Positions 42,212-59,102 of a stretch of DNA of 64,000 nt are shown here, piece after piece; within the stretch, counting starts at the first letter, position 1; every line of letters begins with the position of its first letter. The stretch lies in NCBI RefSeq assembly GCF_034421375.1, contig NZ_CP139779.1, positions 744,001 to 808,000 of the forward strand, read 5' to 3'. The translations under genes and the position numbers were made by a program. Under the pieces are notes generated by a model. The model did no database searches, was not told where the DNA came from, and saw nothing but the letters and a program-made list of their open reading frames with translations. Source of the stretch: Microbacterium invictum (GTDB taxonomy: Bacteria > Actinomycetota > Actinomycetes > Actinomycetales > Microbacteriaceae).

Positions 42212-43426
42212 TCAGGTCGTCCGGGGACGGCACGCGTGCGCGAGCAGCGCGGCCAGAGCCGCGACGGCCGCGACGGCGGCGGCGACGATCCAGCCGACGG
42301 AGGTCCCGAGAATATCGAAGGCGAAGCCGAACACGAAGGGCCCCAGCGCGCTGCCGGCGTAGGCGCCGGACTGGACGACACCCGTCGCACGGGCGCTGTG
42401 CGGGTGAGTCGTATGTGAGACCACGTAATGGATGAGGCCGCTCCATCCCCAGCCGAATCCGAACGCCAGGACGCATCCGATCACGAACGCGACAGGCGAG
42501 AAGGCGGCGATTCCGGCGATTCCGACTGCTCCGATACCGAGCATGAGACTCACCGTGGCCAGCGTGCCGCCGACACCGCGGTCGGCCAGCCACCCGACGA
42601 GGGGTCGGGCCACGGCTCCGGCGACGCTGCCGATACCGAGGATCAGACCGGCGACGCCGGGTGCGACACCGAGGTCAACTCCCGCGCTGACGGTGAACGC
42701 GCCGACGACATTCGCCTGCGCCGAACCCAGGCCGCTGGCCAGCGACACGAGCACGAGGAACGGCACGAGTCGTCGCGGCAGCGCACTGCGTTCTCGAGTG
42801 CGCGCGCGACGTCGCCGCGGTGCCGCCGGCACGACGGCGCGAAGGAGGGGCAGGACAAGCAGTCCGCAGGCGGCAGCGAGCGCGAACGTCCATCGCCAGC
42901 CCACCGTGAGAGCGAGGGTCGGCACGGCGAGACCGGCGAGGAGGGTCGACAGGGGGATCGCCGCCTGTTTGACGCCGTACGCCAGGGCTCGCCGCCGCCG
43001 TCCCACCTGCTGCGCGATGAGCGCGTTGGAGGGAGGATGCCCCAGGGCGTTGCCGAAGCCGGCGACGCCGAGCCAGACGATCAGCCACCACCACACGTCT
43101 GGTGCCAGAGCGATACCGGCCAGCGCGCCGCTCCCGAGGAGGGTGGCGAGCATCATCGACCGGCGTTCACCGAGCCGCGGCGCGAGGGCGCCGGCCACCG
43201 GGGAGAAGAGGGCCGACGCCGACCAGTAGGCGGCGATCACGACACCCAGCCGGCTGATCGTGAGCCCGACGTCGGCGGACATCTGCACGCTCACACCGGC
43301 GACGAGGAACACCGGCAGTACCGTCATCACCGTCGTCGAGATCGCCGCGACAACCGCGACGCGGCCCGGGCGACGACGCGCGCGTGACACGATGGGCGCA
43401 CGGCGGACGATGACGGCAGAGGGCAC
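42212..43426 (-). CDS. MFS transporter, CynX/NimT-like
   Basis: A 404-residue twelve-helix carrier. It has an N-terminal half with GVVIAAYWSASALFSPVAGA and the APRLGERRSMM loop, a basic central loop (RRRRARTRERSALPRR) and a second half with VGWLADRGVGG. The family moves small anions or metabolites. It is divergent from the GntR gene, and two matching operator sites lie between them, so it probably imports the substrate, or exports a product, of the catabolic cluster. GTG start with AGAGGA six bases upstream. Confidence 0.86.
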   Translation of the reverse strand: MPSAVIVRRAPIVSRARRRPGRVAVVAAISTTVMTVLPVFLVAGVSVQMSADVGLTISRLGVVIAAYWSASALFSPVAGALAPRLGERRSMMLATLLGSGALAGIALAPDVWWWLIVWLGVAGFGNALGHPPSNALIAQQVGRRRRALAYGVKQAAIPLSTLLAGLAVPTLALTVGWRWTFALAAACGLLVLPLLRAVVPAAPRRRRARTRERSALPRRLVPFLVLVSLASGLGSAQANVVGAFTVSAGVDLGVAPGVAGLILGIGSVAGAVARPLVGWLADRGVGGTLATVSLMLGIGAVGIAGIAAFSPVAFVIGCVLAFGFGWGWSGLIHYVVSHTTHPHSARATGVVQSGAYAGSALGPFVFGFAFDILGTSVGWIVAAAVAAVAALAALLAHACRPRTT

Positions 43427-43470
43427 TGCGAATCCTCTCGGCAGGGGCGTTGGGGGAGGCGCAGGCCATT

Positions 43471-43480
43471 CTGCATACAG
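43471..43480. promoter_or_regulatory. GntR operator candidate CTGCATACAG
   Basis: Imperfect palindrome CTGCATACAG, the exact reverse complement of the site at 43533-43542. The two are 62 bp apart, close to six helical turns, in the 132-bp gap between the MFS and GntR genes. Confidence 0.55.
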
Positions 43481-43532
43481 CTCACCGATTGCTTGGCACA
43501 ACTACGGCGAACTTTTCACCATCTACTCTATT

Positions 43533-43542
43533 CTGTATGCAG
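43533..43542. promoter_or_regulatory. GntR operator candidate CTGTATGCAG
   Basis: Second copy in the divergent gap, 17 nt upstream of the regulator start. Autoregulation is likely. Confidence 0.55.
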
Positions 43543-43558
43543 ATCGGGGGGAGCGCGG

Positions 43559-44209
43559 ATGGCAGCGCAGTTTGAGGAGGCCGTCGAACGGCTGCGTCAA
43601 TGGATCCTCGACGGCACATACGGCCCGGGTGCCAAGCTCGGTGCGGCAGAGGTGGCGTCGGCGCTGGGGATGTCGCGGACACCGGTGCGCGAGGCGTTCC
43701 GCATCCTGTCGATGGAGGGACTCGTCGAGCTCACCTCCAACCGGGGCGCGCGCGTGGCGATCTGGGAGGATCAGGAGCTCGACACCGTCTTCGAGACGCG
43801 GATCGCGCTCGAAGGGCTCGCCTGCCGCCTCGCCGCGGATCGCATCACCGCTGCACAGGTCGATCAGCTCGCCGAGATCGCCCAGCGCATCGTCGAGCTC
43901 GGGATGCCGCAGAGCGAAGAGGACATGCAGCAGATCCATCGCCTCAACGGCGAGTTCCACGGGGCGATCATCGCCATCGCCGGCAGCGATGCGCTCGGAA
44001 CCGCCATGGGCGGCATCGTTCATGCCGCGATCCTCACCCGCACCCGCGAGTCGTACGACGAGACCGATCAGACCCGAAGCGCGCAGCACCATGTCGAACT
44101 CGTCGCCGCACTCCGCGCCGGCGACGGTCGGTGGGCGCAGTCGGTCATGACGAGCCATCTTCTCGCCGCGCGCGCCTCCCTTCTCGGGCCGCGACGAACC
44201 CCGGCCTGA
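43559..44209 (+). CDS. GntR-family transcriptional regulator, FCD type
   Basis: A 216-residue regulator with an N-terminal winged helix ([16 protein letters not shown], then [17 protein letters not shown]) and an FCD ligand domain whose metal-site helix reads [10 protein letters not shown]. It precedes a LeuD-like gene by 29 nt and faces an MFS gene. TGYATRCA-type sites lie before this gene (two) and in the 45708-45875 divergent region (three). It is thus the likely switch for the whole cluster, with an acid of the pathway as ligand. The ATG has GGGGGGAG upstream; an open frame further upstream covers the operator region. Confidence 0.9.
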
Positions 44210-44238
44210 TGCCCGCGTCCGCCACCGACAGGAGAACC

Positions 44239-44829
44239 ATGGAGCCCCTCACGAGCCACACCGGCGTTGCCGCGCCGCTCGACGTGTCGAACATCGACAC
44301 CGATCAACTGCTCCCCGGCGAGTACCTCAAGCGCATCACCCGAACCGGGTTCGAGGACGGTCTGTTCGCATCGTGGCGAGCCGACCCAGGCTTCGTCCTG
44401 AACAGACCGGAGTACGCCCGCGCGTCGATCCTCGTGGCGGGTCCCGACTTCGGCACCGGGTCGTCGCGGGAGCACGCCGTGTGGGCCCTGCAGGACTGGG
44501 GGTTCCGGGTCGTCATCTCGTCGCGCTTCGCCGACATCTTCCGCTCGAATGCGGGCAAGTCCGGGCTTCTGGCGGCGCGGGTGGCACAGCCCGAGGTCTC
44601 GCGCATCCTGGCGGCACTCGACGACGCACCGGGGATGGAGCTCACCGTCGACCTGGCGGCGCGGACGGTGGCAGGTGACGGGCTCGGCGCGGTCCCCTTC
44701 GAGATCGACGACTACACCGCCTGGCGGCTGCTGAACGGCTTCGACGACATCGCCATCACTTTGCAGAGCGCGGGCGAGATCGCGGAGTTCGAAGCGCAGC
44801 GCCCTGCCTTCACCCCCCGGGTCCGCTAG
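44239..44829 (+). CDS. LeuD-like small subunit of an aconitase-family hydratase
   Basis: A 196-residue swivelling-domain protein with [14 protein letters not shown] near the N-terminus and the substrate loop [13 protein letters not shown]. It is homologous to 3-isopropylmalate dehydratase small subunit. The matching large subunit is 11 kb away at 55636 in the same cluster, not adjacent as in leucine operons, and both sit among catabolic genes. A (di)substituted maleate hydratase, as in DmdAB of nicotinate fermenters, is a reasonable guess. CAGGAG upstream fixes the ATG. Its stop overlaps that of the convergent lyase gene by four bases (CTAG). Confidence 0.88.
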
Positions 44830-45707
44830 GAGGGGAAGTCGCCCGCGCGTCCGAGGAGGGCCGGCGGGAGGATGCCGAGGGCCTCGGTGATGAACCGCGT
44901 CGCCGCGAGGACGCCGTCCAGGCTCTGGCTGACCTCGTGACCGCTGCGCTTCAGTGCGTACAGGAGGTCTTCGGTGGCGATGTTCCCCGTCGCCGCCGGC
45001 GCGAACGGACACCCCCCGATGCCGCCGGTCGACGCGTCGAGCACCTCGACGCCCATCTCGACCGCGGTCAGCGCGTTGGCGTACCCGGTGTTGCGCGTGT
45101 TGTGAAGATGCAGCCGCATCGGAACGTCGATCTCGTCGCGCGCGGCAGTCACGCGGTCTCGCACATCACGGGGAACGCCCACACCGATCGTGTCGGCCAG
45201 AGCGAGCTCTGAGATCGGCAGGTCGCTCACAGCGCGCGTCAGTTCGGCGATCCGCGCGACGGGTACCTCGCCCTCGAAGGGGCACCCGAAGGCGGCGCCG
45301 ATCGTCACGGTCGTCGGGATCCCCGCATCGACCAATCGCTCGACCATCTTCGGCAGCACGGCCAGGCTCTCTGCGACGGTCATCCCCTGATTCCGTCGCG
45401 AGAACTCATCCGTGGCCACGAGCACGATGTTGGCCTCGTCGATGCCCGCGGCGATCGCGCGATCCACGCCTCGGGGATTCATGACCAGGCCGCTGTAGGC
45501 GACCCCCTCGACCCGGGGAACCGCTGCCATGACCTCTTCGGCTCCCGCCATCTGAGGAACGCGATCGGGTCGCGCGAAGCTCACCGCCTCGATGCGCCGC
45601 GCGCCTGAGGCGACCACGTGCTCGATGTACCGGACGCGCGTCCGGACGTCGAGGACGACCTTCTCGTTCTGCAGGCCGTCCCGCGGCCCGACCTCCACGA
45701 TCTGCAC
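44826..45707 (-). CDS. Hydroxymethylglutaryl-CoA lyase family protein
   Basis: A 293-residue TIM-barrel lyase of the HMGL-like group. The N-terminal [12 protein letters not shown] gives the catalytic R9/D10, HLHNTRN the metal histidines, and [12 protein letters not shown] the active-site C233 and asparagine. These residues are complete, so it should cleave a 3-hydroxyacyl-CoA such as HMG-CoA or citramalyl-CoA. The divergent CoA-transferase gene could make its thioester substrate. The GTG start has GGGAGG five bases upstream. The frame extends upstream across the operator region, but that part is not protein-like. Confidence 0.9.
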
Positions 45708-45758
45708 GTTCGCCTCCCGGCATCCATTGTTACGTGAAAATGCGCCTGTGTTTCGGAT

Positions 45759-45768
45759 AAGTATGCAT
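45759..45768. promoter_or_regulatory. Weak GntR operator-like site AAGTATGCAT
   Basis: Seven of ten bases match the CTGTATGCAG site. It lies 21 bp (two turns) before the better site at 45780. Confidence 0.3.
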
Positions 45769-45779
45769 CCTGTAAATAA

Positions 45780-45830: not shown

Positions 45831-45848
45831 AACTGAATGCAATCAGTT
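45831..45848. promoter_or_regulatory. 18-bp palindrome upstream of the CoA-transferase operon
   Basis: AACTGA-ATGCAA-TCAGTT has perfect 6-bp arms. It includes CTGAATGCAA, an 8/10 match to the cluster operator, centred about 36 nt before the start codon. Confidence 0.5.
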
Positions 45849-45875
45849 CGAAGACGAGCGGAGGTGTGTGCATCC

Positions 45876-47129
45876 ATGAAGCCCCAGGATGTTCCCACGG
45901 GTTCGGCCAACGCACCCGACGAGAATGACCGCAGCGGCATGCCGCTGGCCGATCTTCGCGTCATCGAGATGGGTCAACTGCTCGCGGGCCCGTTCTGCGC
46001 CCAGCTGCTCGGCGACTTCGGTGCCGACGTCATCAAGATCGAGCAGCCCACCGTCGGAGACCCCATCCGCGAGTGGGGACAGGCGAAGGCCGATGGTGCG
46101 TCTCTGTGGTGGCCTGTGCTCGGACGGAACAAGCGCACGATCACCTGCAACCTGAGGGTCGCCGAGGGGCAGGATCTCGTGCGGCGGCTCGTCGCCGATG
46201 CCGACGTCCTGCTGGAGAACTTCCGCCCGGGCACCCTGGAGAAGTGGGGTCTCTCGCCCGAGGAGCTGTGGGCCATCAATCCCCGGCTCGTGATCACCCG
46301 CGTGAGCGGCTACGGGCAGACCGGCCCCTACTCCAGCCGCGCCGGCTACGGCTCGATCGGTGAGGCGATGGGGGGCCTGCGCCACGTCACGGGCGACCCG
46401 TCCACACCCCCCTCGCGCGCCGGCATCTCGATCGGCGACGAGCTGGCAGCGGTCTTCGCGACCATCGGCACCCTCGTGGCGCTCCACCACCGCGAGCGCA
46501 CCGGGCGCGGACAGGTCGTCGATTCCGCCATCTACGAGGCCGTGCTGGCCATGATGGAATCCCTCATCCCGGAGTGGCAGGTCGCCGGGTACGTCCGCGA
46601 ACGCACCGGCGCGACCCTCCCGGGGGTGGCGCCCAGCAACATCTACCCGACGCGCTCGGGGGCGATGGTGCTCGTCGCCGCCAACCAGGACTCCGTCTTC
46701 CGCCGCCTCACCGAGGTGATGGGGCGGCCCGAGCTCGCCGAGGACCCCCGGTTCGTCGACCACGCATCACGCGGCGAGAACATGACCGAGCTCGACGGCC
46801 TCATCGCGGGGTGGACGGCCGCGCACGCCACCGACGACCTGCTCGCGAAACTGCACGCGGCCGGCATCCCGGCGGGACTCATCTACACGGCGCCCGACAT
46901 GCTCGCCGACCCTCACTTCGCCGCGCGTGAAGCCATCACGCGCGTGTGGTCACCCGAGCTCGGTCGTGACCTGTCGATGCAGAACGTCTTCCCTCGGCTC
47001 TCCGAGACCCCCGGCCGCGTCCGGCACGTGGGTCGCCCGCGGGGAGCCGACAACACCAGCGTGTACGGCGAGCTACTGGGACTGAGCGCCCAGAAGATCG
47101 CCGAACTACGAGCCAGCGGAGTCATCTAG
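45876..47129 (+). CDS. CaiB/BaiF family III CoA-transferase
   Basis: A 417-residue CoA-transferase with the characteristic N-terminal LLAGPFCAQLLGDFGADVIKIE and catalytic D188 in ISIGDELAA. It moves CoA from a donor thioester such as succinyl-CoA to a carboxylic acid. First gene of the long catabolic operon; its product probably feeds the divergently encoded HMGL-like lyase or activates a released acid. The ATG at 45876 has GGAGG ten bases upstream. An earlier ATG at 45837 lies inside the operator palindrome and has no ribosome site. Confidence 0.92.
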   Translation: MKPQDVPTGSANAPDENDRSGMPLADLRVIEMGQLLAGPFCAQLLGDFGADVIKIEQPTVGDPIREWGQAKADGASLWWPVLGRNKRTITCNLRVAEGQDLVRRLVADADVLLENFRPGTLEKWGLSPEELWAINPRLVITRVSGYGQTGPYSSRAGYGSIGEAMGGLRHVTGDPSTPPSRAGISIGDELAAVFATIGTLVALHHRERTGRGQVVDSAIYEAVLAMMESLIPEWQVAGYVRERTGATLPGVAPSNIYPTRSGAMVLVAANQDSVFRRLTEVMGRPELAEDPRFVDHASRGENMTELDGLIAGWTAAHATDDLLAKLHAAGIPAGLIYTAPDMLADPHFAAREAITRVWSPELGRDLSMQNVFPRLSETPGRVRHVGRPRGADNTSVYGELLGLSAQKIAELRASGVI

Positions 47130-47139
47130 GAGGAATGGA

Positions 47140-49200
47140 ATGACCTATCGGGTCGGAGTGGATGTCGGCGGAACCTTCACCGACGTGCTCCTCATCAACG
47201 CGGAAACAGGCGAGACGTGGCGCTCCAAGGTGCCCTCGACGCCCGAGGACCAGTCGATCGGCGTGCTGCGCGGCATCGAGAAGGCGTGCGAGGAGGCCGG
47301 AATCGCCCGGGGCGATGTGACTCACGTGCAGCACGGCACGACGGTGGCCACGAACGCCGTGCTCGAGGGGAAGGGGGCCAAGGTCGGACTCATCACGACG
47401 GCCGGCTTCCGGCAGGTGCTCCAGATCGCGCGGTCGTATGTGCCGGGCGGTCTCGCGGGCTGGATCGTGTGGCCCAAGCCCGAGCCCCTCGCGAAGCTCG
47501 AGAACACCATCGAGGTCTCGGAGCGGGTGAGCACGAAGGGTGAGATCGTCGACGCGCTCGATGAGGACGACGCCCGGGCGCAGATCGCCAAGCTCCGCGC
47601 CGAGGGCGTCGGGACGGTCTGTGTGAGCCTCATCAACTCCTTCGCCAACGACGCCCACGAGCGACGCCTCGTCGAGATCCTCGCCGAGGAGATGCCCGGG
47701 GTCCCGGTGTCGATCTCGAGTGACGTCCTCCCCGAGATGCGCGAGTACGAGCGCACCCTCACGACCGTCGCCAACGGCTACGTGCAGGTTCAGGTGGGCG
47801 ACTACGTCCGCAACCTCGAGCACAAGATGCACGACGGCGGCCTGGATGCCGAACTCGCCGTCCTCCGTTCGGATGGCGGGCTGTCGTCGCCGGCCGCAGC
47901 GATCGATCGGCCGGTGACGCTCCTGATGTCCGGCCCCGCCGGTGGCGTGACCGGTGCGACCTGGGCGGCGAAAGCGGCCGAGCAGGGCGACTTCCTGGCC
48001 TTCGACATGGGCGGGACGTCCACCGACGTCGCGCTCGTGCAGGGGTATCAGCCCAAGATCGCCAAGGACACCGAGGTCGGGGATCTGAAGATCCGCGTGA
48101 GCTCGGTCGATGTGCGCACCGTCGGCGCCGGCGGCGGGTCCATCGCCCACGTGCCCGAGCTGACCCGCGCGCTTCGCGTCGGCCCGGAGTCGGCCGGCGC
48201 GGTGCCCGGACCCGCGTCCTACGGCAAGGGCGGCACCCTCCCCACCGTCACCGATGCCAATGTCGTGCTCGGCTACCTCCCCGCCGAGCTTGCCGGCGGA
48301 GAGATCACGATGGATGTCGCGGCGGCACGCGCCGCCGTGGCCTCGATCCAGGAGGCCACGGGCCTGAACAGCGTCGAGGCCGTGGCCGCCGGCATCATCG
48401 ACATCGTCAACGAGAACATCCTCGGCGCCATCCGCCTCGTCTCGGTGCAGCAGGGGCACGATCCGCGTGACTTCGCCCTCGTGGCCTTCGGCGGCGCGGG
48501 CCCACTCCACGGGAATGCGCTCGGCCGACTTCTCGGCTCATGGCCGGTCATCATCCCGCCGTCCCCGGGCGTGCTCAACGCCTACGGCGACGTCATGACC
48601 AGCCATCGCGAGGAGTCCGGCCGCACCATCCTGCGCGAGCTCGGATCCCTCACCCCCGCCGGTCTCGCGCAGGAGTTCGACGAGCTCGCCGCCGTCACCC
48701 GTGAGCGTCTCGGCCGTCAGGGGATCGCGGAGGAGACGCTGTCCTTCACCTACGCCGCAGACGTCCGCTACCACGGCCAGGGTTTCGAGTTGACCGTGGA
48801 GGTCGATCGGTCCTCGCTGGACGCACCGGACGGTCTCGAGCGGATCGCGGCGACATTCGATGCCGAGCACGAGCGCCTGTTCTCCTTCCTCCTCGACGCC
48901 GATCACGAGATCGTCGCCCTCACCGTCACCGCCAAGGGCGCCGAGACGCAGATCCCGCTCATCCGCCTCGAGGAGGGCGACGGCGACGTGTCGCGCGCGC
49001 TCCTGCGCACCACCGAGATCTGGGTCGACGGCGGCGTCCACACGGCGGGTCTGTACGACCGTGATCAGCTGCGCGCCGGCGATGTCGTCGTCGGCCCCGC
49101 GATCGTCGTGGAAATGGACTCCACCGCCCTCGTCCTCCCCGACCACGCCGCCACCGTGCACTCCAGCGGCGCCCTGCTCATCGAACCTGTGAAGGAGTAG
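47140..49200 (+). CDS. hyuA: Hydantoinase/oxoprolinase subunit A (HyuA family)
   Basis: A 686-residue ATPase subunit. Phosphate-binding motifs are VGVDVGGTFTDVLL (residues 4-17) and FDMGGTSTDVAL near residue 287, with GAGGGSIAHV and FGGAGPLHG further on. With HyuB it hydrolyses cyclic amides (hydantoins, 5-oxoproline, N-methylhydantoin, lactams, imides) at the cost of ATP. The amidase gene two places downstream suggests that ring opening gives a half-amide or carbamoyl product. GGAGGAATGGA provides the ribosome site, 10 nt after the CoA-transferase. Confidence 0.92.
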   Translation: MTYRVGVDVGGTFTDVLLINAETGETWRSKVPSTPEDQSIGVLRGIEKACEEAGIARGDVTHVQHGTTVATNAVLEGKGAKVGLITTAGFRQVLQIARSYVPGGLAGWIVWPKPEPLAKLENTIEVSERVSTKGEIVDALDEDDARAQIAKLRAEGVGTVCVSLINSFANDAHERRLVEILAEEMPGVPVSISSDVLPEMREYERTLTTVANGYVQVQVGDYVRNLEHKMHDGGLDAELAVLRSDGGLSSPAAAIDRPVTLLMSGPAGGVTGATWAAKAAEQGDFLAFDMGGTSTDVALVQGYQPKIAKDTEVGDLKIRVSSVDVRTVGAGGGSIAHVPELTRALRVGPESAGAVPGPASYGKGGTLPTVTDANVVLGYLPAELAGGEITMDVAAARAAVASIQEATGLNSVEAVAAGIIDIVNENILGAIRLVSVQQGHDPRDFALVAFGGAGPLHGNALGRLLGSWPVIIPPSPGVLNAYGDVMTSHREESGRTILRELGSLTPAGLAQEFDELAAVTRERLGRQGIAEETLSFTYAADVRYHGQGFELTVEVDRSSLDAPDGLERIAATFDAEHERLFSFLLDADHEIVALTVTAKGAETQIPLIRLEEGDGDVSRALLRTTEIWVDGGVHTAGLYDRDQLRAGDVVVGPAIVVEMDSTALVLPDHAATVHSSGALLIEPVKE

Positions 49201-49205: not shown

Positions 49206-51077
49206 ATGGCAACGATCATCGAGACCAACCCGGAGCCGCTCGCGCCCGTCGAGGTCGACGTCGTCACCCTCGACCTCATCGAGAACAGTCTGCGAAACGC
49301 ACGATACGAGATGGACGAGGTGCTCTTCCGCACTGCGCTGTCTCCGGGCATCCGCGAACAGCACGACGAGTTCCCGCTCATCGCCGACGCGCAGGGACGC
49401 ATGGTCGTCGGGCAGTTCGGCCTCTCGGTGCCGGCTCTGCTCGAGCACTTCTCCGGCACGATCGAAGAGGGCGACGTCCTGCTCACGAGCGACCCGTACA
49501 GCTGCGGTGCCGCCATCAGCCACGCCAACGACTGGCTGGTGGTCTCGCCCATCTTCCACGACGGCCGGCTCATGGGCTGGGCGGCGATGTTCGGTCACAT
49601 GACCGATGTCGGCGGCAAGTCCCCGTCCTCGATGCCCACCGATGCGCGCACGATCTACGAAGAGGGCATCGTCATCCCGCCGTTCAAGCTCTACAAGGCG
49701 GGTGAGCTCAACACCGACGCGCTCGACATCATCCTCAACCAGGTACGGCAGCCGCAGTGGAACCGCGCCGACCTCAACGGGCTCGTCGCCGCCACGCGCA
49801 TCGCGGGCAAGCGCGTGGGCGAGATGTGCGAGCGCTTCGGCGCCGACACCTACGCCTCGGGCCTCGACGCGCTCCTGGACCGCAACTACCGCGCGATGAA
49901 GACGCTCCTGGAGATGCTGTTCGTCGACGGCGAGACCATCTCCTTCACCGACTACATCTGCGACGACGGTGTGGGATACGGGCCGTTCGAGCTGAAGCTG
50001 AGCCTCACCCGTCACGGCGACAAGGTCACCCTGGACTTCACCGGGAGTGCGCCTCAGGCCCCGGGACCGATCAACTACTTCCTCAACGAGAACCTCGTGA
50101 AGATGTTCTTCGGCATCTACGTCATCACCGTCGCCGACCCGCAGATCCTGTGGAACGACGGGTACTACCCCCTCATCGACGTCGTGATCCCGGACGGCTC
50201 GTTCTGGAAGCCCAAGTTCCCCGCGGCGCTGAACGCGCGCAACCACGGAATCGGCCGCCTGTTCGATCTCTTCGGAGGACTGCTCGGGCAGAAGACCCCC
50301 GACCTGCTCAACGCCGCCGGCTTCTCCTCCTCGCCCCACTTCATGTACTCGGGCACCTACTCCGAAGGGGAGAAGAAGGGCGAGTCGTTCCAGCTCTACT
50401 CCATCGGGTTCGGCGGGATCCCCGGTCGACCGATCGGCGACGGCCCCGACGGCCACTCGCTGTGGCCTTCGTTCCTCAACATCCCGTGCGAGTACCTCGA
50501 GAGCTACTACCCGATGCGCATCACGAAGTGGGAGACCATCCCCGACTCCGGCGGCGCGGGCCTGCACCGCGGTGGCAACGGCGTGGAAGTCGTCTACGAC
50601 TTCCTCGAGGACGGCGTGATCACCATCCACGACGACCGCTGGCTCACCTACCCCTGGGGGGTCAACGGCGGCAAGCCCGGCGCGCGCAGCCGCAAGTGGA
50701 TCGAACGCCTCGACGGAACGATCGAGGTGCTGCCGAGCAAGGTCGACGACGTGAAGGTGCGCAACGGCGAGAAGCTGCACTTCGGCACCTGGGGCGGCGG
50801 CGGCTGGGGCGACCCGCTCGCCCGCGACCCCGAACTGGTCGCCCTGGAGGTCAAGCGCGGCCTGGTCACCGCCGAGGGCGCCCGCGAGTACGGTGTCGTC
50901 CTGAGCGAGGACGGCTCGGTCGACGTCGCGGAGACCGGCGCCCTCCGCGATCGGATCCGTGACACCCGGCCCCCGCTCGAGACCTTCGACCGCGGCGGCG
51001 ACATCGAGACCATCCTCGCCAACGCGCTCGCCGAAACCGGCCTGCCGGCCCCGATGGCGCCCCCGGTGCTGACGTGA
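49206..51077 (+). CDS. hyuB: Hydantoinase/oxoprolinase subunit B (HyuB family)
   Basis: A 623-residue partner of HyuA. Typical features are the N-terminal VDVVTLDLIENSLRNARYEM, SGDPYSCGAAISHAND-like LLTSDPYSCGAAISHAND near residue 97, and a GGAGLHRGGNGVEV stretch near residue 450. It carries the substrate site for ATP-driven ring opening. It follows hyuA by 5 nt and its stop overlaps the amidase start. Carboxylase activity, as in acetone/acetophenone carboxylase relatives, is the main alternative, but the amidase neighbour favours an amidohydrolase. Confidence 0.92.
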   Translation: MATIIETNPEPLAPVEVDVVTLDLIENSLRNARYEMDEVLFRTALSPGIREQHDEFPLIADAQGRMVVGQFGLSVPALLEHFSGTIEEGDVLLTSDPYSCGAAISHANDWLVVSPIFHDGRLMGWAAMFGHMTDVGGKSPSSMPTDARTIYEEGIVIPPFKLYKAGELNTDALDIILNQVRQPQWNRADLNGLVAATRIAGKRVGEMCERFGADTYASGLDALLDRNYRAMKTLLEMLFVDGETISFTDYICDDGVGYGPFELKLSLTRHGDKVTLDFTGSAPQAPGPINYFLNENLVKMFFGIYVITVADPQILWNDGYYPLIDVVIPDGSFWKPKFPAALNARNHGIGRLFDLFGGLLGQKTPDLLNAAGFSSSPHFMYSGTYSEGEKKGESFQLYSIGFGGIPGRPIGDGPDGHSLWPSFLNIPCEYLESYYPMRITKWETIPDSGGAGLHRGGNGVEVVYDFLEDGVITIHDDRWLTYPWGVNGGKPGARSRKWIERLDGTIEVLPSKVDDVKVRNGEKLHFGTWGGGGWGDPLARDPELVALEVKRGLVTAEGAREYGVVLSEDGSVDVAETGALRDRIRDTRPPLETFDRGGDIETILANALAETGLPAPMAPPVLT

Positions 51078-51733: not shown

Positions 51734-52740
51734 CGGTCACCGCTCCCGACACCGACGCGGTGGTCGCCGCGAAGCGGCGGTCCTCCTTCTCGCCGCTGGC
51801 GATCCTCGAACGCTACGGCGTGATCGTGGCGTGGCTCGTCGTGATCGTCGTGTTCTCGATCCTCCGGCCCGCGACCTTCCCCACCGCCGGGACGGTCTCG
51901 CTCATCTTCGGCACCCAGACGGTCATCCTCGTCGCCACCCTCGGACTCATGCTGACCCTCGCCGTCGGCGAGATCGATCTCTCGGTCGGCAGCGTGGTCG
52001 GATTCGGTGCGTCGCTGATGGTCGTGCTGAACGGCGTGGCCGGCGTGGACGTGTGGCTGTCGTTCCTGCTGACGATCGCCGCATGCGCCCTGTTCGGTCT
52101 GTGCAACGCCGTCCTCACCGTGATCGTGGGCGTGCAATCGATCATCGTGACCCTCGCCAGCGGCACCCTGCTCGCGGGGATCACGCTGGCCGTCACCGGA
52201 TCCAAGGTCGTGACCGGACTCGATGTCGCCGTCGTCCAGCTCATCTCCACGAGGTGGTTCGGCATCCCGATCCCGTTCTACCTCGGCATCGTCCTGACCG
52301 TGGTGCTGTGGTTCGTGCTGCAGCACACCCCGCTCGGTCGCCGCATGGCCTTCGTCAACTCCAACCGGGTGGTCGCGCGCCTCGCGGGCATCCGTGTCGA
52401 CCGCATCCGCATGGGAGGACTCATCGCGACGGCGGTGTTCGCCGGTCTCGCGGGCGTCATCCTCGCGGGTCAGAACGGCGCGGCCAACCCGCAGGCGGGT
52501 GCCTCGTACCTTCTGCCCGCTTTCGCCGGCGCGTTCCTCGGATCGACCACCATCCGTCCCGGCACGTTCAACGCCGTCGGCACCTGGGTCGCCGTCTACT
52601 TCCTCATCACCGGCATCACGGGCCTCGTCTACCTCGGCTTCGCCGGGTGGCCCGAGCAGGTGTTCTACGGTGCGTCCCTCCTCGTCGCCGTCTCGCTGAG
52701 CGTGCTCGCGCGGCGACGACGACGGGAAGGAATCACCTAG
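51730..52740 (+). CDS. ABC transporter permease, RbsC/XylH type
   Basis: A 336-residue permease with about eight to ten helices. It has the family segments VATLGLMLTLAVGEIDLSVG and a GLAGVILAGQNGAANPQAG stretch ending near AFLGSTTIRPG. Carbohydrate-uptake class 2 permeases import sugars, but also other polar compounds. With the binding protein and the ATPase downstream it forms a complete importer. Its place between amidase and hydratase genes implies the carried substrate is the cyclic amide or imide, or a related compound, rather than a sugar. The ATG overlaps the preceding stop. Confidence 0.9.
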   Translation: MTVTAPDTDAVVAAKRRSSFSPLAILERYGVIVAWLVVIVVFSILRPATFPTAGTVSLIFGTQTVILVATLGLMLTLAVGEIDLSVGSVVGFGASLMVVLNGVAGVDVWLSFLLTIAACALFGLCNAVLTVIVGVQSIIVTLASGTLLAGITLAVTGSKVVTGLDVAVVQLISTRWFGIPIPFYLGIVLTVVLWFVLQHTPLGRRMAFVNSNRVVARLAGIRVDRIRMGGLIATAVFAGLAGVILAGQNGAANPQAGASYLLPAFAGAFLGSTTIRPGTFNAVGTWVAVYFLITGITGLVYLGFAGWPEQVFYGASLLVAVSLSVLARRRRREGIT

Positions 52741-52875: not shown

Positions 52876-54048
52876 ATGACCATTCGCACACCCGGACGCG
52901 TCGCGGGCATCGCCGCGGCGCTGGTCCTCATCGCAGGATTGGCCGCGTGCTCCACCGACGCCGGCGGAGCGGCCCCGGCCGACTCCGGCGCCCCCGCCGA
53001 CTCCGGCGCCGCCGTCGACACCGCCGGGATCGAAACCGCCCAGGCCCAGCTGGACATCTACTACGAGCCCCCCACCTGGCAGGGCCCCGACGTTCCCGTC
53101 GATCTGACGGGCCTCGAGGGCAAGCGCGTCACCTACATCAACGTCTCCAGCGGCATCCCCGTCCTGAAGTACTGGACCGACACCGTCAAGGCGATCCTCG
53201 ACGAACAGGCCGGCGTGATCCTGGAGGAGGTCGACGCGAAGGGTTCCGTCGACGAGGCGAACCGCGGGTTCCAGCAGGCCATCGCCAGCGGGGCTGATCT
53301 GATCGTGCTCCAGGCACTCTCGCCGGAGCTGTTCGCCACGCAGATCGCCGACGCCCAGGCGCAGGGGATAAAGGTCATCACCGGCAACACCGGTGTCCCG
53401 GGTGATGTGTCGGAGGGCCAGGACGCCGAGGTCTCGTTCGACTACGTCAAGATCGGCGAGCTCATCGCCGACTGGTTCATCGTCGATTCCGAGGGCGCGG
53501 GCAAGGCCACGGTCATCTCATCCGACGACGTCCCCGCGTCTCAGCCGCAGGTTCAGGCCACCCTCGACCGGGTCGCCGAGCTGTGCCCCCAGTGCGACGT
53601 CAAGGTCGAGGACATCCAGATCCCGCAGTGGGAGACCTCGGTGCCGACGCTCGTGCAGAGCACGATCAACACCGACCCGGAGCGCACCTACTTCCTGCCG
53701 CTCTACGACGGCCAGGGGCTCTCGGGCCTCGGCGCCATCCGCGCCGCGGGGGCCGGAGACCGCGTGACCATGGGTGCGTTCAACGCCACCCCCGGCATCG
53801 TGGAGAGCCTCATGGACCCGACCAGCGGCCTCGGTCTCGACATCGGCGGGCAGAACGAGTGGTGGGCCTACGCCATGGCCGATCAGATCTTCCGCGTCCT
53901 TCAGGACGAGGAGCCAATCGAGAACTACAACGTCGGCCTGCGCATCTTCGACCGCGACAACGCGGAGGAGCTGATCGTGGGCGAAGAGCTCGACTGGTAC
54001 GGCTACGACGGCTACCGGGACGAGTTCCTGGCTCTGTGGGGTAAGTGA
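52876..54048 (+). CDS. ABC transporter substrate-binding lipoprotein
   Basis: A 390-residue periplasmic-binding-protein type 1 protein (ribose-binding-like). The signal peptide ends in a lipobox with lipidated C25 (GLAAC), followed by an Ala/Pro/Asp linker and the two-lobed domain (GIPVLKYWTDTVKAIL, DLIVLQALSP, VITGNTGVPGD). It hands ligand to the permease/ATPase pair. The gene stands between two strong hairpins, which may allow more binding protein than membrane subunits to be made. The ATG at 52876 has AGAGG upstream. Ligand unknown. Confidence 0.9.
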   Translation: MTIRTPGRVAGIAAALVLIAGLAACSTDAGGAAPADSGAPADSGAAVDTAGIETAQAQLDIYYEPPTWQGPDVPVDLTGLEGKRVTYINVSSGIPVLKYWTDTVKAILDEQAGVILEEVDAKGSVDEANRGFQQAIASGADLIVLQALSPELFATQIADAQAQGIKVITGNTGVPGDVSEGQDAEVSFDYVKIGELIADWFIVDSEGAGKATVISSDDVPASQPQVQATLDRVAELCPQCDVKVEDIQIPQWETSVPTLVQSTINTDPERTYFLPLYDGQGLSGLGAIRAAGAGDRVTMGAFNATPGIVESLMDPTSGLGLDIGGQNEWWAYAMADQIFRVLQDEEPIENYNVGLRIFDRDNAEELIVGEELDWYGYDGYRDEFLALWGK

Positions 54049-54115: not shown

Positions 54116-55639
54116 ATGACGACCCAGGATGCCGCGCCGGCGCTGTCCGTCGCGAATGTGTCGAAGACATTCGGAACGACACGCGTGCTCACAGACGTGA
54201 CCCTGTCCGTCGCCCCCGGAGAGGTCGCCGCGCTGATCGGCGAGAACGGCAGCGGGAAGTCGACCTTCATCAAGATCCTGTCGGGATTCCACGAGGGCGA
54301 TCGCGGGGGAACCGTCTGCATGGGCGGAGTGGACGTCAGCGACGCGTTGCAGGACGGCCCCGAGAAGACCGGCATGGGCTTCATCCATCAGGACCTCGCG
54401 CTCGTGGAGACCATGACGATCGTCGAGAACCTGCGCATCGGCGGCTTCTCCACCGGGTTCCTCGGTCGGATCAGGTGGAGACAGGAGGCCGAGACGGTGC
54501 GCGGATTGCTGCGCCGAGTGGGACTCGACGTCGATCCGAACGTGCGCGTGGGTGAGCTCAGCGTCACCGACCGTGCGCTGGTGGCCATCGCGCGGGGGCT
54601 CGCCGAGATCGATCGCGCCTCGCACCTCTCCGCGCGCCTCCTCGTCCTCGACGAACCGACGGCCTACCTGCCCGTGACCGGTGTCGAGCGGTTGTTCCAG
54701 GCCGTCGCGCAGCTCGCAGCGGAAGGCGTCAGCGTGTTGTTCGTCTCCCACCGGCTCGACGAGGTGCTGCGATACTGCACCCGCGCCTTCGTGCTGCGGG
54801 GCGGCCGCCTCGTCGCCGATGAGCCGACCGCCGGCCGTACCGAGCGCGACCTCGTGACGCTCATGCTCGGCCGCGCGCCCGAGGATCTGTACCCCGAATA
54901 CGCCCTGTCACCCGCCGAGTGCAGCATCGAGGTGACCGGACTCGCCGGCGGCCTCGTCGAGAGCGTCGACTTCGACGCCCGCGCGGGCGAGATCATCGGT
55001 CTCATCGGTCTGCCCGGCAGTGGCTACGAGGAGATCCCCTACCTGCTGTCGGGGTGTCGACCGGCGACCTCGGGGTCGTTGCGCGTGGGCGATCAGGTGA
55101 TGGATGTCGGTCGTCTCGAGCCGGGGGCCGCGATCCGAGCCGGTGTCGCACTTCTGCCGGCCGACCGCAAGTCGGCCAGCGGCGCCCAAGACCTCTCGGT
55201 TTCCGACAACATCACCGTCGCCACCCTGGGAAGCGTCGTCCGACGGGGCGTGATCTCGCGTCGCGAGGAGCGCGATGTCGTGGCAGCGCAGATCGAGCGA
55301 TTCCACATCGCCCTCCCCGACCCGCAACATGCGTTGAGCTCGCTGTCGGGAGGCAACCAGCAGAAGGCGCTCCTGGCGAAGTGGGTGATCTCCGCCCCGC
55401 GCGTGTTCTTCCTCCACGAACCGACCCAGGGGGTGGACGTGGGCGCCAAGCGCGAGGTGTTCCGCCACCTCACCGAACTCGCACGCCAGGGGGCGACTCT
55501 GGTGATCTCGAGTGTCGAATACGAGGACCTCGCGGCCCTCTGCACGCGCGTGCACGTGATGCGTCGCGGGCGCATCATCCGCACGATCGAGCGCGACGAC
55601 CTGAGCGCGCACGAGCTGGCCGTGGCGGTGCACGGATGA
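54116..55639 (+). CDS. ABC transporter ATP-binding protein, RbsA/MglA type
   Basis: A 507-residue protein of two fused ATPase domains. Domain 1 has Walker [10 protein letters not shown] (about residues 42-50) and Walker [13 protein letters not shown], with a degenerate signature ([14 protein letters not shown]). Domain 2 has a degenerate Walker A ([11 protein letters not shown]) but an intact signature [17 protein letters not shown]. This split is normal for the family. It energises the importer formed with the permease and binding protein. AAGGAG upstream of the ATG; the stop overlaps the LeuC-like gene. Confidence 0.92.
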
Positions 55640-57108
55640 TTGCCCGGACGATGATCGACAAGATCTGGAGCGCCCATGCCATCGCGAGGGAGGGCAAGCC
55701 CGACCTGCTCTACATCGACCTGCACTTCCTCCACGAAGTCTCCAGCCCGCAGGCGTTCGACGGGCTCCGTCTCGCAGGGCGAGGCGTGCACCGCCCCGAC
55801 CTCACCATCGCGGTCGAAGACCACAACGTGCCCACCGACGGCCTCATCATGCGCGATCCGATCGGGCGCGCCCAGGTGGAGGCCCTCCGCCGGAACTGCC
55901 GAGAGTTCGGCATCGAACTGCGCCGTCTCGGCGAGCCCGGCCAGGGGATCGTGCACGTGATCGGCCCCGAGACGGGGCTGACCCAGCCCGGCATGACCAT
56001 CGTCTGCGGTGACAGTCACACCTCCACGCACGGCGCCCTCGGTGCCCTCGCCTTCGGGATCGGCACCAGCGAGGTCGAGCACGTGCTGGCGACTCAGACG
56101 CTCTCGCAGGCGAAGCCCCGCACGATGGCGGTGACCGTGACGGGCGAACTCGCCGACGGGGTCACCGCGAAAGACCTGGCCCTGCATCTCATCTCACGGG
56201 TCGGCACCGGCGGAGGACAGGGTCACATCGTCGAATATCGGGGGAGCGCGATCGAGGCGCTCTCGATCGAAGCGCGGATGACGCTGTGCAACATGTCCAT
56301 CGAGTGGGGTGCCCGCGCGGGTCTGGTCGCCCCCGACGAGAAGACCCTCGACTACGTGCGAGGGCGGGAGTACGCCCCGGCGGGGCCGGCCTGGGACGCC
56401 GCGGTCGATCACTGGATGAGCCTGCGCAGCGACCCCTGGGCGGTCTTCGACGCCGAGATCGTCATCGACGCCGCCGACGTCTCCCCGTGGGTCACCTGGG
56501 GCACCAACCCCGGGCAGGGGGTTCCGCTGTCCGGCTCGGTCCCCGCTCCGGAAGAGGCCGCCGACGACGTCGCCGTCGCGGGCGCCCGCAAGGCGCTCGA
56601 GTACATGGCGCTCGAACCCGGGACGAGGATGCGGGACATCCGTGTGGACACCGTCTTCATCGGCTCCTGCACCAACGCCCGCATCGAAGACCTCCGTGCC
56701 GCGGCTGATGTGCTGCGCGGGCGTGCGATCGCGCCCGACATCACCCTCCTCGTCGTCCCAGGATCGATGCGCGTCAAGGCGCAGGCCGAGGAGGAGGGGC
56801 TCGATGCCGTATTCCGGGAGGCGGGCGGTGAGTGGCGGATGGCCGGGTGCTCGATGTGCCTGGGCTTGAACGAGGACTCCGTCGCCCCGGGCGTGCGCAC
56901 GGCGTCGACGTCGAATCGCAACTTCGAAGGCCGTCAGGGCGCGGGCGCCCGAACCCATCTCGTTTCGCCCGCCGTCGCCGCCGCGACGGCGGTGCGCGGC
57001 ACGCTCTCCTCGCCCGCGGACCTGGTCGCACCGTCGACCCGTGCCGCATCCGCCGTCGCCGGCACCGCCGGCGCCTCACACGAAGGACTCTCCACCGATG
57101 ACCGCTGA
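55636..57108 (+). CDS. LeuC-like large subunit of an aconitase-family hydratase
   Basis: A 490-residue [4Fe-4S] hydratase subunit. Cluster ligands C345 (GSCTN), C405 and C408 (GCSMCLG) are present, as are [10 protein letters not shown] near residue 75 and [13 protein letters not shown] near 124. It would pair with the LeuD-like protein at 44239. The C-terminal 40 residues form an unusual Ala/Thr-rich tail. The catabolic setting suggests hydration of a substituted maleate (dimethylmaleate, citraconate) to a malate derivative, which the next gene could cleave. True isopropylmalate dehydratase remains possible. ATGA overlap with the ATPase; the start of the next gene lies 11 nt inside it. Confidence 0.9.
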
Positions 57109-57985
57109 CACCACGCTCCGCGCGCGCTTCGCCGCACTCCAGGGGGCCCCGCTCTTCGCTGCGGGTGGGGGCACGCCCCTCGAAGCGCTGCTGACCGAGC
57201 AGGCGGGATTCGACGCCTTCTACCTCTCCGGCTATGCCGTCGCGGCGTGGCGGCACGGCCTGCCCGACATCGGGCTTCTGGGAATGAGCGACACCGCCCA
57301 GGCACTGCGCGCCGTGGCCCGCGTGGTCGACATCCCCATCGTGTGCGATGCCGACACCGGGTACGGCGATGTGATCGCGGTGACCGCGAACGTGCGGGAG
57401 CTCGAGGCGATCGGTGCCGCCGCGATCCAGATCGAAGACCAGGAGTGGCCGAAGAAGTGCGGCCACATGGAGGGGAAGACCGTGATCGCCCGCGACGACG
57501 CGGTGCGCAAGGTCGCCGCCGCCGTGGAGGCCCGCCGCGATCCCGAGACGATGATCATCGCGCGCACCGACGCGCTCGCGCCGCTCGGCATCGACGAGGC
57601 GATCGCCCGCGCCCAGGCGTTCGCGGCCGTCGGCGCCGATCTGGTGTTCGTCGACGCGCCCCCGTCGAAGGACGACCTCCGGCGCATCTCCGAGGAAGTG
57701 GGCGGGCTCCTGGTGGCCAACATCAGCGAGGGTGGGCTGACTCCCACCGTTCCCCTGGAGGATCTCGCCGAGCTCGGCTACGGGTTCGTGATGTACCCCA
57801 CCTCGGCGCTCCGCGTCGCGGCGCGGACGATGGGAGAGTTCCTCGCCGAGCTGAAGGCGTCGGGAACCTCGGTGGCCTGGCGAGAACGGATGCACGGGCT
57901 CGACGGCCTCAACGAGATCGTCCGTCTCGATGACTACCTCGAGGTGGATGCCCGATTCGCCGCCACCCCGGTGCCGTCTGCCTGA
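57098..57985 (+). CDS. Isocitrate lyase/PEP mutase superfamily C-C lyase
   Basis: A 295-residue TIM-barrel protein. YLSGYAVAA (42-50), the metal-site DADTGYGD (84-91) and the catalytic loop KKCGHMEGK (119-127) with C121 are characteristic of the lyases (isocitrate, 2-methylisocitrate and 2,3-dimethylmalate lyase), unlike PEP mutases, which lack the cysteine. Following a LeuC-like hydratase, 2,3-dimethylmalate lyase (to pyruvate and propionate) or methylisocitrate lyase are the leading candidates. Its ATG lies within the end of the LeuC-like gene, so the two are co-translated. Confidence 0.9.
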
Positions 57986-57998
57986 GAAGACCGCGGCC

Positions 57999-59102
57999 AT
58001 GCTCACCATCTCCGGCGCGATCCTCGATCGGATCGGCGATCCCGCGCCCTACGCCTCCTCCCTCCCGCTGCGCATCGGTTCGCTCAGCCTCGATGACCCC
58101 GGTCCCGGTGAACTGCTCGTCCGCATCGAAGCGGCCGGCGTCTGCCACTCCGACCTGTCCGTGGTGTCCGGCGTGCGCCCGAGACCCGTCCCGATGCTGC
58201 TCGGGCACGAGGCGGCCGGGATCGTCGAGGCCGTCGGAGCGCAGACGTCGATCGCCGTCGGAACACGTGTGGTCATGACCTTCCTCCCGCGCTGCGGAAG
58301 CTGCGCGGCGTGCCGCACCGGCGGGCGCGCGCCCTGCGTCGTCGGCAGCGCGGCGAACGGTTCCGGCGTGCTGATGGGCGGCGGATCCCGGTTGCGCGAG
58401 GGCGGCGCGTCCGTCGCCCACCACCTCGGCGTCTCGGCCTTCGCCGACCACGCGGTGGTCGACGAGCGCTCCGTCGTGGTGGTCGACGACGACGTGCCGC
58501 CCGATGTCGCCGCTCTGATGGGATGCGCGGTGCTCACCGGCGGGGGTGCCGTCCTCAACTCCGCCGGCCTCGCTCCGGGGGAGAGCCTCCTCGTCGTCGG
58601 CCTCGGCGGCGTGGGGCTTGCGGCGCTCCTGGCGGGGCTGGCCCTCGGTGCGACGCGCGTCACGGCCGTGGATCTTCATCCCGCCAAGCTCGAGGCGGCG
58701 ATGGACCTCGGAGCCCACGAGGCGCTGACGCCCGACGAGGCCGCAGAGGCGGGTATCACGGCCGACGTGGTCGTGGAGGCCGTCGGGCGAGCGGTCGCCT
58801 TCGAGCAGGCGATCGCGCTGACCGCCCCCGGCGGCCGGACCGTCACTGTCGGCCTGCCCGCTCCCGACGATCTGGCGACCCTCTCACCGCTGTCGCTCGT
58901 CGCCGAAGGTCGCTCCGTCATCGGCAGCTATCTCGGCGGATCGGTTCCCCGGCGCGACATCCCCCGATTCCTCGCGCTCTGGCGAGAGGGACGCCTCCCC
59001 GTCGAGAAGCTCGTCAGCCGGCACATCGCCTTTGACGAGATCAACGATGCGATGGACGAGCTCGCGGCGGGCCGGGCCGTGCGTCAGATCATCCGGTTCT
59101 GA
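57999..59102 (+). CDS. Zinc-dependent alcohol dehydrogenase
   Basis: A 367-residue medium-chain dehydrogenase. Catalytic zinc ligands are in AGVCHSDL and GHEAAG; the four structural-zinc cysteines are in CGSCAACRTGGRAPC; the cofactor motif is GLGGVGLAALLAG. It is the last gene of the catabolic operon, 13 nt after the lyase. It may oxidise a hydroxymethyl group on the substrate or handle an aldehyde product. Nothing in the sequence fixes the substrate. Confidence 0.9.
   Translation: MLTISGAILDRIGDPAPYASSLPLRIGSLSLDDPGPGELLVRIEAAGVCHSDLSVVSGVRPRPVPMLLGHEAAGIVEAVGAQTSIAVGTRVVMTFLPRCGSCAACRTGGRAPCVVGSAANGSGVLMGGGSRLREGGASVAHHLGVSAFADHAVVDERSVVVVDDDVPPDVAALMGCAVLTGGGAVLNSAGLAPGESLLVVGLGGVGLAALLAGLALGATRVTAVDLHPAKLEAAMDLGAHEALTPDEAAEAGITADVVVEAVGRAVAFEQAIALTAPGGRTVTVGLPAPDDLATLSPLSLVAEGRSVIGSYLGGSVPRRDIPRFLALWREGRLPVEKLVSRHIAFDEINDAMDELAAGRAVRQIIRF

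Follow-up and report, generated by a model that had tools for sequence, protein, structure and literature searches.

The 64,000-nt stretch of the Microbacterium invictum genome analysed here (the window) corresponds to positions 744001-808000 of a single-contig genome of 3.53 Mb. A gene cluster at window positions 42212-59102 probably encodes a catabolic route for an imported N-heterocycle with an amide ring, most likely a five-membered cyclic imide of the alkyl-maleimide or alkyl-succinimide type, which would be degraded by a HyuAB hydrolase, an amidase, a LeuCD-type hydratase and two carbon-chain-cutting exits. The interval encodes a major facilitator superfamily (MFS) carrier, a GntR regulator, a LeuD-like protein, an HMGL-like lyase, a class III CoA-transferase, HyuA, HyuB, an isochorismatase-fold amidase, an ATP-binding cassette (ABC) importer, a LeuC-like protein, a lyase of the isocitrate lyase (ICL) family and a zinc alcohol dehydrogenase (ADH). 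All of these genes are intact open reading frames, and the families given to them in a first-pass annotation made from the sequence alone agreed with Pfam (for the ABC importer, in its substrate-binding protein) and, for HyuA and HyuB, with NCBIfam. The gene content, the catalytic residues, the recurrence of the set and the exchangeability of its modules were observed directly.

In the proposed pathway, HyuAB would open the ring in an ATP-driven reaction to give a half-amide, the NicF-like amidase would release ammonia from it to give a substituted maleate, and LeuCD would hydrate this to a substituted malate. In one exit, the ICL-family lyase would cut the malate directly into a 2-oxo acid and a short acid; in the other, activation by the CoA-transferase would be followed by cleavage by the HMGL-like lyase into a 2-oxo acid and an acyl-CoA. 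ADH may act on the side chain or on an aldehyde product. Each of these reactions, the order of the steps and the class of substrate are predictions.

Predicted enzymes of the cluster

HyuA keeps the ASKHA ATP motifs DVGGT8, DMGGT289 and GAVPGP353 (general form DVGGT/DMGGT/GxxPGP), and the Asp-His-Asp-His metal tetrad of HyuB (D54, H106, D109 and H131) aligns to D41, H99, D102 and H124 of CapB. In the sections of the caprolactamase study that describe these ATP motifs and CapB residues, changing the corresponding CapA aspartates or CapB metal ligands to alanine removed the activity wholly or almost wholly (PMC8453981). The window proteins scored below the NCBIfam equivalog cutoffs for caprolactamase proper (511 and 201 bits, against 1000 each). 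The amidase triad D35, K123 and C156 was found where the first-pass annotation had placed it. The amidase was 53%, 54% and 53% identical to the amidases of Pantoea (L156), Azospirillum (L164) and Pararhizobium (L165), which lie in nicotinate-type clusters and presumably act on maleamate. Among the matches listed, at least 120 amidase relatives all shared at least 66% identity, approximately 20 of 120 carried the JGI name 'maleamate amidohydrolase', and the relatives of both the amidase and the ICL-family protein included several Microbacteriaceae.

LeuC contains C345 in GSCTN and C405 and C408 in a CxxC motif. LeuD scored 61.3 bits against the DmdB family model TIGR02087, below its cutoff of 108.95. 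LeuCD-type hydratases act on alkylmaleates, namely isopropylmaleate, for which this is established, and citraconate. A second LeuCD pair was found at position 1701510 of the genome (L102; LeuC 63% and LeuD 61% identical to the cluster copies), with neighbours that by eye resemble murA, gpsA and ddl, so the pair in the cluster is not the only candidate isopropylmalate dehydratase of the genome, as the first-pass annotation had allowed that it might be, and we rejected, or at least lowered, a role in leucine biosynthesis. The cluster LeuC grouped with the LeuC proteins of the actinobacterial genomes G281, G731, G153 and G517 (100/99), apart from the second genomic copy.

The predicted lyase cysteine of the ICL-family protein, C121, was confirmed in KKCGH, which corresponds to the K-[KR]-C-G-H lyase loop. 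The protein scored 271.2 bits against the PrpB equivalog TIGR02317, below the cutoff of 354.4, and its PDB matches included 3fa3, an entry named 2,3-dimethylmalate lyase. It has Pro where the PDP chain has Ser, which we take to be a mark of enzymes that accept a tertiary alcohol. At least 120 relatives were listed at 55% identity or more, including entries from Nanopelagicaceae and Acidimicrobiales. A prp-type locus lies elsewhere in the genome (L103; GntR, a PrpB-like gene detected by BLAST, and PrpD and PrpC read by eye); because of this locus and the score under the PrpB cutoff, we rejected, or at least lowered, a propionate or methylcitrate role. Another ICL-like match, at 1080643, led us to reject, or at least to lower, a role in the glyoxylate cycle. 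The HMGL-like protein scores above the cutoff of the 3-hydroxy-3-methylglutaryl-CoA (HMG-CoA) lyase subfamily model PRK05692, which indicates family membership. The best named families of the CoA-transferase are the succinate-glutarate and mesaconate CoA-transferases, far under their cutoffs. Taken together, the likeness of the amidase, the chemistry of LeuCD and the Pro of the lyase favour a 2-alkylmalate derived from an alkyl-maleimide or alkyl-succinimide, which is the substrate type that fits best.

Recurrence of the gene set in other bacteria

At E <= 1e-60, 7 of the 366 genomes sampled from the genus contained an ICL-family relative; at E <= 1e-75, this was true of 7 of 398 genomes from the family, 5 of 394 from the class and 2 of 396 from the phylum (own genome counted; the last three samples overlap). 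The genome contig scan took in 80 of 215 relatives; genes of the relatives were called with a simple codon-bias caller, and key genes were checked by tblastn. Three other actinobacterial genomes (G281, G731 and G411) hold the full set of CoA-transferase, HyuA, HyuB, HMGL, LeuC, LeuD, amidase, ABC, ADH and ICL genes. G1238 has ICL, SDR, LeuC, HyuA, HyuB, amidase and HisD genes, with LeuD and ADH not detected, and a 10.8-kb contig of G1088 has HyuB, HyuA, LeuD, a LeuC of another subfamily, ADH, ICL and ABC genes. A 13-kb contig of G510 carries amidase, ABC, ADH, two ICL, HisD, SDR and 3HADH-like genes, and HyuAB, LeuCD, CoA-transferase and HMGL are absent from that contig. In G153, G517 and G1297, the amidase, LeuC, LeuD and ICL genes are preceded by genes for an FAD monooxygenase and an AMDase-fold protein instead of HyuAB; the first two clusters contain ADH and are also preceded by a molybdenum hydroxylase, whose large subunit in G153 is PaoC-like (671 bits, cutoff 1180). 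ICL and ADH occur with DUF6282, CMD and LLM monooxygenase proteins in G205, G087, G214 and G594, the first three of which have a GatA-type amidase, and G1219 has ICL, ADH, DUF6282 and a distant aconitase-family pair. ADH adjoins ICL in 13 of the 15 actinobacterial genomes of this ICL clade, the exceptions being G1238 and G1297. In the actinobacterial clusters, ICL and ADH are nearly constant and the ring-opening module is variable, with other front ends replacing HyuAB.

Several accompanying genes were also recorded. DUF6282 was found with ICL and ADH at loci L097, L098, L099, L129 and L148 (CMD and LLM at four of the five; GatA-type amidase at L097-L099); this set is a possible third ring-opening module, and DUF6282 may be a ring hydrolase. 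The AMDase-fold protein (L095:14920-15663, L096:7442-8191, L126:13307-14056 and L153:4003-4746) is encoded together with either the FAD monooxygenase or amidase and CoA-transferase. We rejected a maleate isomerase role for these four proteins because the NicE cysteines C80 and C198, which we take to be the catalytic pair of NicE homologues, are missing at the aligned positions (GMS[AS]ETFW in three proteins and GISAETFW in one; QVGTNL in all four). In G411, G510, G1238 and Sulfitobacter pontiacus (L124, L128, L147 and L151), the set comes with a HisD-family dehydrogenase and an SDR, HisD being 53% identical between G411 and Sulfitobacter, and this pair suggests oxidation of a hydroxymethyl side chain. 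A further cluster, in G214 and G003 (L100 and L101), consists of an ICL-family gene with GntR, a LeuCD pair close to the second copy of the M. invictum genome, CaiB, and MaoC, CitE and PrpD ORFs read by eye.

A tblastn search of the ICL-family protein against 72,556 plasmid records gave 32 records with a match, 16 of which were opened; six of the opened records were unannotated and were read by tblastn or with the codon-bias gene caller. Nine of the 16, all from Proteobacteria, contain HyuAB, LeuC and/or LeuD, an isochorismatase-fold amidase and ICL: Sulfitobacter pontiacus, S. sp. S190, S. sp. SK012, Azospirillum oryzae, A. brasilense, Allorhizobium, Neorhizobium (leuD only, at the edge of the stretch) and two Paraburkholderia. 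LeuCD and ICL occur without HyuAB in three records, from two Cupriavidus and the archaeon Halomarina, the latter with an isochorismatase gene, and four records have neither LeuCD nor HyuAB (Pseudohalocynthiibacter, Roseivivax, Tistrella, which has PrpD-family genes instead, and R. leguminosarum). On a Geobacillus plasmid (L175), amidase, HyuA, HyuB, CoA-transferase and HMGL genes are followed by a transposase and LeuC-LeuD, with no ICL in the stretch. The full set was found in none of 78 control ICL-family loci taken from the genome contig scan (36-45% identity, tblastn E <= 1e-15; 19 of the 78 stretches shorter than 12 kb), from which L008 and L009, which hold the set, had been excluded; one control, L015 from Rokubacteria, has amidase, LeuC and LeuD, one has HyuA and one has LeuD.

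The search for linked LeuCD, HyuAB, ICL and amidase genes was thus positive in Actinobacteria, Sulfitobacter, Azospirillum, Rhizobiaceae and Paraburkholderia. The conserved synteny supports the logic, put forward in the first-pass annotation, of ring opening followed by an amidase, an aconitase-family hydratase and an ICL-family lyase, and the conservation of the linkage across groups contradicts its reservation that HyuAB and the amidase might be unconnected with the other genes. The specific substrate and the products, pyruvate plus propionate, that it suggested gained no support. Since the same enzyme combination occurs in unrelated bacteria, the pathway is probably real and undescribed. 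The proteobacterial clusters also contain an FAD_binding_2 flavoprotein (L158:13327-14733, L159:13790-15175 and L151:12845-14212), and some contain Asp/Glu racemases or a tautomerase; these genes perhaps form a succinimide-derived branch. The flavoprotein resembles the fumarate reductase flavocytochrome and TcuA, below cutoffs. We dropped its assignment as a succinate-type dehydrogenase, because the scores are under the cutoffs and the conserved C-terminal stretch of fumarate reductase is changed, and we claim no role for it.

Near 17 loci with HyuB of the window type, we found amidase in 15, CoA-transferase in 13, HMGL (by sequence) in 10, LeuC in 7 and ICL in 6, tallies that are biased, since ICL or amidase matches contributed to the selection of the loci. 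Each of the seven loci with LeuC also has ICL (six loci) and/or CoA-transferase plus HMGL (five loci), and the two exits therefore look like alternatives for the same hydroxylated diacid. Loci L142, L140, Novosphingobium L154 and Acidiphilium L174 have window-type HyuAB with CoA-transferase and HMGL, and their fetched stretches contain neither LeuCD nor ICL. The conservation of CoA-transferase and HMGL with HyuAB and amidase where ICL is not nearby points to an apparent second C-C-cleaving exit, and the window carries both. At loci without LeuCD, another hydratase would have to take part, or the acid would have to be hydroxylated already.

The combination recurs with different parts. The window-type HyuB proteins of the 17 loci group together (100/100) on a long stem of 2.39. 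Those of the nine proteobacterial records make up a separate clade (100/99); three of them were compared with the window HyuB and were 31-34% identical to it. In the HyuB tree, which omits L135 (a HyuB fragment) and L128 (a contig without HyuB) and for which the program warns that long branches meet, the proteobacterial clade joins CapB (84/75, not starred) before the window type. Five of 20 plasmid records matching HyuB were opened, and Novosphingobium was added through the amidase list. Four proteobacterial amidases were 26-39% identical to the window amidase across just 46-101 residues, and the Paraburkholderia hydratase belongs to the LeuD/DmdB family (TIGR02087, 152.4 bits, cutoff 109). 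The actinobacterial and proteobacterial clades are separate in the ICL tree; an approximately unbiased (AU) test left a single ICL clade unrejected (p 0.205), and we therefore do not claim two ICL recruitments. This test dropped 15 of 58 rows, namely six on long branches (L155 twice, L166, L169, L074 and L018) and 9 of 19 other controls, and the tested group of 30 rows included L157, L167, L168 and L171, all without the full set. Judging from these comparisons, either parts were swapped for non-orthologues or the set was assembled more than once; both would argue that the enzyme classes serve one pathway.

Evidence against the pathway and alternative readings

Several observations weigh against an imide pathway of this form. 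Besides the selection bias in the HyuB tallies, the fetched stretch contains no LeuC at 10 of the 17 loci, so LeuCD-catalysed hydration is not common to them all, and a near HyuB relative in Sphingomonas JE1 (L173) lies beside none of the partner genes. LeuCD and ICL occur without HyuAB or amidase in Cupriavidus (L168 and L171), and amidase, LeuCD and ICL occur without HyuAB at L015. Measured by path length, the proteobacterial HyuB clade lies closer to the window type than either CapB or N-methylhydantoinase does, so HyuB alone is no proof of separate recruitment. The closest plasmid relatives of the amidase (6 of 122 matching records were opened) are those of Tistrella (L153, 61%) and Novosphingobium (L154, 57%), both in CoA-transferase/HMGL clusters, and among PDB chains it matches N-carbamoylsarcosine amidohydrolase best (155 bits). 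LeuC and LeuD both exceed the 3-isopropylmalate dehydratase cutoffs (TIGR00170 and TIGR00171), so that the scans cannot tell them from leucine enzymes. Finally, at a position where Glu is found in PrpB, PDP and the proteobacterial clade, the actinobacterial ICL A/B/C clade carries Asp (F[IV]DA); it also lacks Phe at the PrpB NITEFG position, and the two changes are a possible mark of specificity.

HyuAB and the amidase might instead open a six-membered ring, such as glutarimide, glutaconimide or a pyridine-derived ring, with the acid leaving through the CoA-transferase and HMGL as a 3-hydroxyglutaryl-type CoA ester and LeuCD and ICL forming a side branch. This would suit the HMGL-like protein, which passes the HMG-CoA lyase cutoff, the CoA-transferase, whose best match is a succinate-glutarate CoA-transferase below cutoff, and the loci L142, L140, L154 and L174, where both genes stand with HyuAB and amidase but, within the fetched stretches, without LeuCD and ICL. 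Two clusters with the FAD monooxygenase front end (type B; G153 and G517) also contain a molybdenum hydroxylase, and the part of PMC9304392 on the fungal nicotinate route describes a course via glutarimide and hydroxyglutaramate. However, the nine proteobacterial records pair LeuC and/or LeuD and ICL with HyuAB and amidase, and no gene within the cluster matches CoA-transferase or HMGL, as would be expected for a malate- or maleate-type skeleton; the sole CoA-transferase match in these records (34%, in L162) lies more than 5 kb outside the cluster. The identity of the amidase to those of nicotinate-type clusters also speaks for the shorter skeleton, and we regard the six-membered ring as unlikely. 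A route from isonicotinate or citrazinate to cis-aconitamide was rejected, or at least lowered, because a dedicated LeuCD and ICL would presumably be redundant with enzymes of the tricarboxylic acid cycle; the literature was unhelpful on this point.

Degradation of N-methylhydantoin, creatinine or another ureide beside unrelated LeuCD and ICL genes would agree with the names of the best PDB matches, N-methylhydantoinase for HyuB and N-carbamoylsarcosine amidohydrolase for the amidase. Nevertheless, Actinobacteria, Proteobacteria and Bacillota all show the linkage with LeuCD, ICL or CoA-transferase plus HMGL, in each case built from parts that differ in lineage, and amidases 53-54% identical to that of the window lie in nicotinate-type clusters, which makes a ureide substrate quite improbable. 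The cluster could also combine two neighbouring pathways for different substrates that were joined in Microbacteriaceae, one consisting of HyuAB, amidase, CoA-transferase and HMGL and the other of ICL, LeuCD and ADH. The halves do occur apart, the former at L142, L140, L154 and L174 and ICL with LeuCD in Cupriavidus L168 and L171, but in the window they are interleaved (LeuD before the CoA-transferase; LeuC and ICL after the ABC genes), they stand together in G281, G731 and G411, and Proteobacteria show the combination too, as does Geobacillus except for ICL. We therefore give two independent pathways very little weight and prefer the single imide pathway.

Gene layout, related systems and significance

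The genes are listed in Table 1. The first-pass annotation had placed them under one apparent regulator, which is too simple: the HMGL and MFS genes are on the minus strand. All genes from the CoA-transferase to ADH lie on the plus strand, and the spacing between neighbours ranges from an overlap of 11 bases (-11) to a gap of 135 (+135). GntR and LeuD lie upstream of the plus-strand run, HMGL lies on the opposite strand between LeuD and the CoA-transferase, and LeuD adjoins GntR, 10.8 kb away from LeuC. Orthologues of the regulator occur in G281 (73%) and G731 (54%); the MFS carrier had no match in the stretches around these two clusters. A TPP-dependent decarboxylase-like ORF (read by eye) lies at 40498-42207 beside the MFS gene, and the G1297 cluster (L149) contains a further ORF of the TPP type. 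On the minus strand at 59133-63763, gluconokinase-, mannonate dehydratase-, fructuronate reductase- and glucuronate isomerase-like ORFs (by eye) form a neighbouring hexuronate cluster.

Table 1. Genes of the cluster in window coordinates, with the matches and motifs behind each assignment
Feature	Position	Strand	Evidence and remarks
MFS carrier	42212..43501	-	Pfam MFS_1 3.2e-39; divergent neighbour, possible uptake or efflux, membership uncertain
GntR/FCD regulator	43493..44209	+	Pfam GntR and FCD; ATG at 43559 is the likelier start
LeuD-like hydratase small subunit	44239..44829	+	TIGR00171 180.5 bits, cutoff 116.25; 61% to genome copy at L102
HMGL-like acyl-CoA lyase	44826..45707	-	GTG start; PF00682 3.8e-37; PRK05692 283.5 bits, cutoff 246; PRDG, HLH and GGCP motifs
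Class III CoA-transferase	45837..47129	+	PF02515 2.7e-122; start may be ~100 bases downstream
HyuA, putative ATP-binding subunit of cyclic amide hydrolase	47140..49200	+	Caprolactamase alpha model 511 bits, cutoff 1000; DVGGT8, DMGGT289, GAVPGP353
HyuB, putative metal-binding subunit of cyclic amide hydrolase	49206..51077	+	PDB N-methylhydantoinase 238 bits, 6yra_B 185 bits; D54/H106/D109/H131
Isochorismatase-fold putative half-amidase, NicF-like	51074..51733	+	PF00857 3.6e-40; D35/K123/C156
ABC permease, ribose-type importer	51730..52740	+	Conserved with cluster; family read from sequence only
ABC substrate-binding protein	52876..54048	+	Peripla_BP_4 4.7e-19
ABC ATPase	54116..55639	+	Conserved with cluster; family read from sequence only
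LeuC-like hydratase large subunit	55636..57108	+	TIGR00170 690 bits, cutoff 560.25
ICL/PEP-mutase superfamily putative C-C lyase	57098..57985	+	PF13714 2e-42; KKCGH with C121; prpB model 271.2 bits, cutoff 354.4
Zinc alcohol dehydrogenase	57999..59102	+	ADH_N and ADH_zinc_N; open frame from 57930, start inferred

The nicotinate fermentation of Eubacterium barkeri ends with dimethylmaleate hydratase (DmdAB) followed by 2,3-dimethylmalate lyase. The window resembles it in having an aconitase-family hydratase and an ICL-superfamily lyase for a substituted malate, and the Paraburkholderia version has a small subunit of the LeuD/DmdB family; however, the LeuD of the window is not of the DmdB type, an E. 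barkeri-like front end is absent, and HyuAB, amidase, CoA-transferase and HMGL are added. The aerobic nicotinate (nic) pathway uses the maleamate amidase NicF, and its cluster encodes a molybdenum hydroxylase, an FAD monooxygenase, a 2,5-dihydroxypyridine dioxygenase and a deformylase. The window shares an amidase that is similar to those of the nicotinate-type clusters of Pantoea, Azospirillum and Pararhizobium, but none of these four enzymes, nor maleate isomerase, is encoded among the genes at 42212-59102, the interval covered, and we rejected, or at least lowered, a pure nicotinate pathway because this front end is missing from the cluster. The ATP motifs and metal tetrad of CapAB caprolactamase and N-methylhydantoinase are conserved in the window HyuAB, which differs from these enzymes in its scores far under the caprolactamase cutoffs and in the long stem of its HyuB clade.

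Cyclic imides are metabolized in bacteria by an imidase and a half-amidase, and the window shares this logic from imide through half-amide to diacid, although the imidases named there are not of the HyuAB type. We know of no LeuCD/ICL follow-up to that route. PrpB of the methylcitrate cycle shares with the window lyase the superfamily, the KKCGH/KRCGH lyase motif and the Pro at the YP position; the window lyase differs in its score, in FVDA for FPEA and NISEGG for NITEFG, and in the presence of a prp-type locus elsewhere in the genome. A fungal imide step is described in part of PMC9304392. The known families of the parts and the closing steps like those of nicotinate fermentation indicate that this is not a categorically new system. 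Searches of open-access papers in PubMed Central gave no description of this gene set.

A wider proposal is that the cluster represents a widespread pathway for alkyl-maleimides and alkyl-succinimides derived from tetrapyrroles (chlorophyll, haem and bilins), in which HyuAB would serve as an ATP-driven imidase, the NicF-like enzyme as half-amidase and LeuCD as the hydratase of alkylmaleates, with two interchangeable exits, and which would have been assembled more than once from parts of different lineages; we consider this doubtful in its entirety. Such imides are known as end products of pigment decay, and the tetrapyrrole origin is a speculation from their natural abundance. To our knowledge, no bacterial genes for the final breakdown of these imides have been described, and the cluster would, if the pathway preferred here is right, offer a candidate route for it. 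Concrete roles would then follow for ATP-dependent HyuAB proteins and for orphan lyases of the ICL superfamily, and genes labelled 'leucine biosynthesis', 'hydantoinase', 'oxaloacetate decarboxylase' and 'N-carbamoylsarcosine amidase' would belong to one modular N-heterocycle pathway in soil, freshwater and marine bacteria.

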